DNA of 64,000 nucleotides from Thiorhodovibrio litoralis (GTDB lineage Bacteria > Pseudomonadota > Gammaproteobacteria > Chromatiales > Chromatiaceae): positions 744,001-808,000 of the forward strand of contig NZ_CP121473.1 in the NCBI RefSeq assembly GCF_033954455.1, given 5' to 3'. The notes beneath the pieces were generated by a model that was not told the origin of the DNA, ran no database searches, and saw only the letters and a program-made list of their open reading frames with translations. Positions 22,812 through 29,500 of the stretch are shown piece by piece. Made by a program: the position numbers and the translations under genes. Position 1 is the first letter of the stretch. Every line of letters starts with the position of its first letter.

Positions 22812-22982
22812 TTAGTTGACGAACAGCATGCCAGCAGGAGCGATCGCGAACACTGCAGCGTGAACTGCGATGCCCAGGACCAGCAGAGAGAAGAACATCG
22901 GCATCAGCCAAGTAGAAGGATTAACGACCATCCAGATTTTCCAGTCGTCTTGGGGGTTTTGGGGCTTAGCGATTTCGGCCAT
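22812..22982 (-). CDS. pucA2: LH2-type light-harvesting alpha subunit, copy 2
   Basis: A 56-aa antenna polypeptide. The N-terminal [17 protein letters not shown] is close to the alpha chain of Phaeospirillum molischianum LH2, including the Asp just before the aromatic residue that there ligates B800. One membrane helix follows with the BChl a ligand His in GIAVHAAVF. After the His there is no Trp or Tyr, the residues that usually hydrogen-bond B850 acetyl groups. It ends at MLFVN with no tail. The product spans the intracytoplasmic membrane and pairs with a beta subunit. It is the last gene of pucB1A1B2A2. Confidence 0.95.
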
Positions 22983-23035: not shown

Positions 23036-23161
23036 TTAGAACCAGGGCTTGCCGCCGATGACCAGAATGTGAGCAACAGCTGCCAGACCGACGAAAGCGG
23101 TGTAGGTGACCTTGAACTGCTCGTGGAACTCTTTTGCTTGATCAGGGGTAAGACCAGACAT
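23036..23161 (-). CDS. pucB2: LH2-type light-harvesting beta subunit, copy 2
   Basis: A 41-aa beta antenna chain: TPDQAKEFHEQFKVTYTAFVGLA precedes the helix, the BChl ligand His is in AAVAHILV, and it ends GGKPWF with Trp at His+9 as in other beta chains. It differs from copy 1 by a shorter N-terminus and Lys instead of Gln before PWF. GAGGC lies upstream of the ATG. It is 53 nt from pucA2. A 7-bp hairpin (23194-23200 with 23209-23215) lies between pucA1 and this gene. Confidence 0.95.
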   Translation of the reverse strand: MSGLTPDQAKEFHEQFKVTYTAFVGLAAVAHILVIGGKPWF

Positions 23162-23280: not shown

Positions 23281-23529
23281 TTATTGTGCAGCTGGAGCAG
23301 CTTCTGCAGCAGGAGCTGGGGCAGCAGCCGCAGGAGCAGCAGCAACCGGAGCTTCATCATTCACGAACAGCATGCCAGCTGGCGCAATGCTGAATACAGC
23401 GGCGTGAACAGCGATACCAAGCACCAGCAGTGACAGCATCATCGGCATCAGCCAGGTCGAAGGATTAACGACCAGCCAGATGCGATAGTCTTGCTCAGCG
23501 GGCTTGTAGTTTAGTACGTCTTGGAACAT
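23281..23529 (-). CDS. pucA1: LH2-type light-harvesting alpha subunit with Ala/Pro-rich tail, copy 1
   Basis: An 82-aa alpha antenna chain. The N-terminal [19 protein letters not shown] and the helix with GIAVHAAVF match copy 2, including the putative B800 Asp and the BChl ligand His. After MLFVND it continues for about 24 residues consisting almost only of Ala and Pro with two Glu and a final Gln. As in copy 2, no Trp or Tyr follows the His. The start has AAGGAG upstream. The 156-nt gap to pucB1 contains a weak stem (ctttatc with gataaag). Confidence 0.94.
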   Translation of the reverse strand: MFQDVLNYKPAEQDYRIWLVVNPSTWLMPMMLSLLVLGIAVHAAVFSIAPAGMLFVNDEAPVAAAPAAAAPAPAAEAAPAAQ

Positions 23530-23829: not shown

Positions 23830-24033
23830 TTTTTAGACTCTCCCGTTAGGGGTTGAAGACTTTAGCCGCGCGTCTTGCGGCTGAATTCACCGCGACATGT
23901 CCGCAAGGCGGGTGTCGTGATGAGCGCTTTGCCCAGCGGTGCCGGAGGCGAAAGCCGGTCGGAAGAGACCTGTTGGCAAATGCCTGGTGGCGAAACTGGG
24001 CGATTAATCCCTTAACCCTGCTCGATCCATGGG

Positions 24034-24077
24034 TGTCAGTTTAGCCTGACAGAGATAAATGTCAACACTGATGTACA
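24034..24077 (-). promoter_or_regulatory. puc promoter with two PpsR/CrtJ-type sites
   Basis: Two palindromic TGT-N12-ACA motifs lie at 24034-24051 (tgtcagtttagcctgaca) and 24060-24077 (tgtcaacactgatgtaca), 8 bp apart. On the minus strand a sigma70-like promoter overlaps both: TTGACA (24065-24060) is the end of one site and TAAACT (24043-24038) lies inside the other, with 16-bp spacing. TGT-N12-ACA is the known target of PpsR/CrtJ, the aerobic/light repressor of photosynthesis genes. Occupancy would cover both promoter elements. The leader to pucB1 is about 200 nt. An A/T run just upstream could act as an UP element. Confidence 0.82.
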
Positions 24078-24740
24078 GTTTTTTTTTCGCGCACCGGCTT
24101 TTTTTTGGTGAGGTAACCTAATGCAGATTGCCTGCGTGTTTTAAGCCTTTGAAAGAAAAGATAAAAGAGGTGAGGATGGGGTGGTCGGCCGACTCCGGGT
24201 TTGCCAGCCCAGGCCTGTTGCCAAGCCGTTTGGAAGGCCTTGCTGCGTGCGGATGGCGGACATCTTTTTGTTTTGTTATCGCGGCACCTAGATGATCTGG
24301 TCCCCGGGGAAGGGCTGATCAAAGGCGAGCGCCGGGTGGGGTGTCAACTTTGCTTAACGTAAAGAAATATTGACATACCGGCGGTATCCGACTAGATTTT
24401 GTAACATTAGTGCGAGGACTCTTGACTGGAGTATTGCGTCCAGAAAGAGGGTGGCGTTTGGTCCATGCTGCGGCGATGACCTGCATCAAGGCAGACAATA
24501 TAATAGGTTTCGGATCTGGCGTTTGTGCGCAGGGCGGTGCGGGCTTAAGATGACAGCCCTTTCGTAGGCATGGCTCTCTGCCCAAGGGTGGTTTGCTAAG
24601 GGCTGGAAGGGGGCTACTCTGTTAAGGGGGCGCTCTTCGCCAAGGTCAAGCTTCGGCCTCGACTCACTGAGCGTCGGGGCAGGGTGCTGTGTCAGATCTG
24701 CCGTTGCGCGGCGAGCAAGCGAGATCGATAACATATAGAA
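24078..24740 (+). promoter_or_regulatory. bchH upstream region with a sigma70-like promoter
   Basis: The 660 nt between the puc promoter and bchH hold no supportable gene. A good promoter match faces bchH: TTGACA at 24370-24375, 17-bp spacing, TAGATT at 24393-24398. It is about 340 nt from the bchH start, so the leader would be long. No TGT-N12-ACA motif was found next to it. Short open frames on both strands here have no family resemblance. Confidence 0.5.

Positions 24741-29500
<4,760 letters not shown>

Follow-up and report, generated by a model that had tools for sequence, protein, structure and literature searches.

In the window, by which we mean the whole 64,000-nucleotide stretch of the Thiorhodovibrio litoralis chromosome analysed here, four antenna genes are read from the minus strand in the order beta-alpha-beta-alpha (pucBABA), and bchH is transcribed divergently from them (Table 1). 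The first-pass annotation had recognized an LH2 operon, and this identity is borne out by the beta and alpha chains, whose best matches are B800-850 chains in solved structures; beta 1, alpha 1 and alpha 2, the chains tested for it, all match PF00556. Alpha chain 1 (23281-23529) carries a long Ala/Pro tail that is absent from alpha chain 2. Thiorhodovibrio frisius strain 970 is described as being without LHII.

Table 1 Features of the LH2–bchH locus and one further copy of the overlapping double site. Positions are those of the window unless a locus is given; matrix ranks are among 139,915 positions.
Feature	Position	Strand	Basis
LH2 alpha chain 2	22812..22982	-	PF00556
LH2 beta chain 2	23036..23161	-	95% identity to beta 1 over matched stretch
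LH2 alpha chain 1 (pucA), 82 aa	23281..23529	-	best matches B800-850 alpha chains; PF00556
LH2 beta chain 1 (pucB), 47 aa	23686..23829	-	best matches B800-850 beta chains; PF00556
Downstream PpsR/CrtJ-type palindrome, LH2 promoter, TGTCAGGCTAAACTGACA	24034..24051	-	exact TGT-N12-ACA; matrix rank 1/139,915
Putative -10 TAAACT, LH2 promoter, 16 bp from -35	24038..24043	-	sequence; R. capsulatus bchC register
Putative -35 TTGACA, LH2 promoter	24060..24065	-	sequence; register conserved in 65 genomes of family
Upstream PpsR/CrtJ-type palindrome, LH2 promoter, TGTACATCAGTGTTGACA	24060..24077	-	exact TGT-N12-ACA; matrix rank 4/139,915
Overlapping double PpsR-type site, bchH promoter, TGTCAACTTTGCTTAACGTAAAGAAATATTGACA	24342..24375	+	boxes rank 3 and 6/139,915
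Putative bchH promoter TTGACA-N17-TAGATT	24370..24398	+	sequence; conserved in G076, G004, G028, G019
bchH, magnesium chelatase H subunit, divergent from LH2	24741..28559	+	PF02514 and PF11965
34-bp overlapping double site, further copy	L041:9557-9590		

A scan of the 64-kb window placed two exact TGT-N12-ACA palindromes at 24034-24051 (TGTCAGTTTAGCCTGACA) and 24060-24077 (TGTCAACACTGATGTACA), separated by exactly 8 bp. Read on the minus strand, the resulting 44-bp element is TGTACATCAGTG-TTGACA-TTTATCTC-TGTCAGGC-TAAACT-GACA, where TTTATCTC is tttatctc. The claim that tandem TGT-N12-ACA sites lie over the puc promoter therefore stands, since both sites are exact, TTGACA-N16-TAAACT is embedded in them and LH2 genes follow downstream. 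The -10 does fall inside one palindrome, the downstream one, as had been stated, but the -35, which had been attributed to outer bases, is formed by the inner half of the upstream palindrome, on the side towards the genes. From the register of the R. capsulatus bchC palindromes (-47 to -30 and -21 to -4; PMC5362033), transcription is predicted to start near 24030. The stretch in which the LH2 leader is predicted to start (23998-24033, GATTAATCC..TTAACCCTGCTCGATCCATGGGT) is near-identical in genomes G076 and G004. Both also share a T run at 24078-24087 (an A-tract when read on the promoter strand), which abuts the -35 palindrome on its upstream side and could be an UP element.

The first-pass annotation had proposed a genome-wide count of such pairs, and this count singled out the LH2 promoter: the host genome, a single contig of 5,466,623 bases, holds two TGT-N12-ACA pairs with spacers of 0-30 bp, only one of them (24034-24077) at exactly 8 bp, and the expectation derived from other spacings in PpsR-encoding relatives is about 0.06 pairs per spacing per genome. 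The only other pair (L010; G000:C1:4193215-4193253) has a 3-bp spacer. A box matrix trained on antenna boxes from other genera, with this genus left out, and used to rank 139,915 positions, additionally recovered an 8-bp pair with one mismatch at 4588293-4588336, upstream of a gene that reads as bchC, the one with the classic pair in R. capsulatus; a third box lies 7 bp further on (L215:18293-18361; G000:C1:4588293-4588361).

We surveyed 194 genomes of the family, 75 of them encoding PpsR and 74 carrying an exact 8-bp pair, and counted pairs at spacers of 0-30 bp. At 8 bp, genomes with PpsR contain 206 pairs, whereas every other spacing averages 4.4, a 47-fold enrichment; in those without it the figures are 10 and 10.1, that is, no enrichment. 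At least one exact 8-bp pair is present in 68 of 75 genomes with PpsR versus 6 of 119 without (P = 1e-36, Fisher's test, a value that overstates independence because the genomes share ancestry); the contrast between spacings, drawn within one set of genomes, suffers less from this effect. The promoter-embedded pattern TGT-N9-TTGACA-N8-TGT-N5-TANNNT-N-ACA was found in 65 genomes of the family, and its reversed control in none. Among the loci fetched, which do not cover all 206 sites, an LH beta gene lies downstream of 37 of 38 promoter-embedded pairs, with the remaining sequence ending after 108 bp, and several pairs that do not fit the strict promoter pattern lie next to other genes or to genes of no assigned identity. 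G028, a genome of the same genus that encodes PpsR and has no 8-bp pair, was ruled out as a counterexample because this LH2 operon is absent there.

The first-pass reading had been made to depend on a ppsR/crtJ gene in the genome, and a profile search located one (TIGR02040, 524 bits, above the cut-off). It lies at 4,415,998-4,417,434, away from the LH2 locus on the same chromosome, flanked by bchF and by a UbiA-family gene whose sequence reads as bchG. The predicted protein combines PAS domains with a Fis-type helix-turn-helix (HTH_8) and aligns along the R. sphaeroides PpsR structure 4hh2. It has just two cysteines, C107 and C428, of which C428 is the helix-turn-helix cysteine of PpsR/CrtJ proteins. 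The model of a disulfide between two cysteines may therefore not hold for it. Domain searches of the host genome gave no clear candidate for a B12-binding AerR/PpaA antirepressor (PF02310 has four matches, of which just one is short, a 250-aa protein at 4395061 beside a methyltransferase-like gene and not ppsR) or for an AppA partner, with one short BLUF protein present. The presence of host ppsR, the co-occurrence of 8-bp pairs with PpsR and a geometry equal to that of R. capsulatus bchC and close to that of Rubrivivax pucB (9 bp) together support the proposed identity of the LH2 pair as PpsR/CrtJ-type sites on the LH2 promoter.

Tandem PpsR sites that cover a sigma-70 promoter are known from characterised bacteria, and the LH2 pair thus belongs to an established operator type. 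Its geometry is proven for the CrtJ operator of R. capsulatus bchC, where of two TGT-N12-ACA sites 8 bp apart one covers the -35 and the other the -10 (PMC5362033, PMC6199135) and the pair responds to redox (PMC5362033), although the gene is bchC and not LH2; the puc sites of R. capsulatus are far apart, at 240 bp (PMC4452267). Another case is pucB of Rubrivivax gelatinosus, likewise an LH2 gene with paired PpsR sites on its promoter, footprinted over the -35 and -10, but with a spacing of 9 bp and one site of the form TGT-N12-ACG (PMC4452267). Redox-dependent binding by Rubrivivax PpsR was seen at 9 bp and not at 8 bp, and the MT1 probe, which carries a perfect 8-bp pair, was bound tightly regardless of redox state (PMC4452267).

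By analogy with these relatives, we consider it very probable that the 44-bp element serves the LH2 operon as its operator-promoter. The host PpsR/CrtJ homologue would bind both palindromes cooperatively and, covering both the -35 and the -10, would block RNA polymerase until its release, with bchH and bchF controlled by this repressor as well, by way of the overlapping site described below. Binding and repression at this promoter are extrapolated from characterised relatives that share the arrangement, and repression of LH2 by PpsR is strongly expected. The releasing signal may be oxygen or redox, light or an antirepressor. Aerobic control is a reasonable default but may not apply: the perfect 8-bp pair is redox-insensitive in Rubrivivax, whereas the bchC pair is redox-responsive in R. 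capsulatus.

The bchH promoter carries a different arrangement. No 8-bp TGT-N12-ACA pair was found upstream of bchH, which agrees with the first-pass annotation; its suggestion that the divergent units may consequently be regulated differently is not supported, because a conserved double PpsR-type site occupies 24342-24375. This 34-bp element consists of two PpsR-type boxes that share 2 bp through ACGT (ACA and TGT), and its last six bases, TTGACA, are the putative bchH -35; the bchH transcript is predicted to start a few bases beyond 24398. Since the boxes overlap by 2 bp, the spacer is -2 instead of +8, 10 bp or roughly one helical turn less. Each box is one base off TGT-N12-ACA (TGT-N12-ACG and CGT-N12-ACA), and we therefore class the element as PpsR-like and not as a standard PpsR/CrtJ operator. 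It is kept before bchH in G076, G004, G028 and G019; G032 has it too, but there a bchN-like stretch intervenes. The host has two copies, at the bchH promoter and in the bchF–ppsR intergenic region facing bchF (G000:C1:4415556-4415589), and the boxes of the latter rank 8 and 9 of 139,915 with the matrix trained without this genus. G028 has a third copy near LH1-like beta genes (L216:13148-13181; G028:C1:838148-838181).

Across the family, TGTCA-N9-WACGTW-N9-TGACA occurs at 33 sites in 23 genomes, all of which encode PpsR except for one genome that is 84% complete, and an off-register pattern with 10 instead of 9 unspecified bases has no match in the 194 genomes. Of 28 copies with a recognisable promoter in fetched loci, 21 face bchF, 6 face bchH and 1 faces a bchN-like stretch. 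For a wider survey, 80 ppsR loci were fetched by the ppsR protein alone (L104-L183) and the 1500 bp upstream of ppsR were scanned, which recovered TGT-N12-ACGT-N12-ACA in 62 loci from several bacterial classes: 16 of 17 Chromatiaceae loci, the 17th being without upstream sequence, and 46 of 63 others. Carriers include Hyphomicrobium, Methylobacterium, Sphingomonadales, Acetobacteraceae, Ectothiorhodospira and one Acidobacteria bin, and 61 of the 62 have a correctly oriented bchF downstream. In the same 80 loci, control patterns with other spacings averaged 0 and 0.3 matches and other centre tetramers gave 0 or 1; one control with 9 matches proved to be the same element with an extra CA. Five Beijerinckiaceae/Rhabdaerophilum loci have, in place of the overlapping element, a 7-bp TGT-N12-ACA pair with one mismatch, which suggests that overlapping and spaced forms are interchangeable.

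We found no description of an overlapping PpsR site in the accessible literature, with many subscription papers lying outside the search. In the alphaproteobacterium Dinoroseobacter shibae, whose bchF is light-controlled, paired PpsR sites cover the -10 and -35 of this gene and half-site mutations derepress it, but the sites are described as separate motifs and not as an overlapping ACGT-centred element (PMC10890935). In Congregibacter litoralis, a gammaproteobacterium like the host, 12 of 15 predicted PpsR sites are tandem and 7-8 nt apart; these sites are predictions only, and the accessible part of that report does not mention an overlapping form (PMC2654016).

Three other interpretations were weighed against these readings. 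Chance might have brought two common motifs together over a promoter to give the LH2 pair, and single TGT-N12-ACA sites are indeed about as frequent in the window as expected at random (8 versus 6.2), but the pair is unique in the genome, is kept in G076, G004 and G019, which have the same LH2–bchH arrangement, and belongs to a class with spacing-specific enrichment; a chance origin is extremely improbable and we rejected it as contradicted by this conservation. PpsR might also bind the pair but mainly activate or tune LH2, or repress it independently of oxygen, instead of being an aerobic repressor. Rubrivivax PpsR has been reported as both repressor and activator, the perfect 8-bp probe is redox-insensitive there (PMC4452267), and members of the host genus live mostly under anaerobic to microaerophilic conditions. 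However, we regard this as unlikely because coverage of both the -35 and the -10 favours occlusion, ppsR deletion in Rubrivivax raised pucB about 190-fold aerobically (PMC4452267) and D. shibae bchF was derepressed by the half-site mutations (PMC10890935).

For bchH, the missing 8-bp pair and the one-base deviation of each overlapping box could mean that this gene is outside PpsR control, that the 34-bp element belongs to another regulator and that the divergent units are regulated differently. We think this improbable, because the matrix built from antenna boxes of other genera ranks the bchH boxes among its highest-scoring positions (3 and 6 of 139,915), the element is confined to PpsR-encoding genomes apart from the incomplete one, it ends in the -35 of bchH or bchF, and a spaced TGT-N12-ACA pair takes its place in the five loci noted above. 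Binding of the overlapping form by PpsR is the most economical reading of the sequences, and the divergent bchH promoter is most likely under the same repressor as LH2 via its overlapping double site.

The overlapping element is probably a second, so far overlooked operator form of PpsR: in this 34-bp sequence, TGT-N12-ACGT-N12-ACA, two boxes share 2 bp and stand nearer to each other by one helical turn than in the 8-bp tandem. In purple sulfur bacteria this form would sit on the -35 of bchF and bchH, as opposed to the 8-bp tandem on antenna operons and bchC, and its bchF version would be widespread in phototrophic Proteobacteria and missed by TGT-N12-ACA scans. With the LH2 pair, a repressor architecture already known elsewhere is extended to a purple sulfur bacterium, and experiments gain a precisely defined site. 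The overlapping site is of greater consequence: should PpsR bind it, standard motif scans undercount the regulon. An example, if this is true, would be Sediminicoccus, in which a 2024 study placed PpsR sites only before bchC and puc (PMC10949492), whereas all four Acetobacteraceae-labelled loci in our survey (L146, L152, L156 and L174) have an overlapping site directed towards bchF. The contacts that two PpsR dimers can make with each other on DNA would, moreover, be constrained by spacers of -2 and +8 bp.
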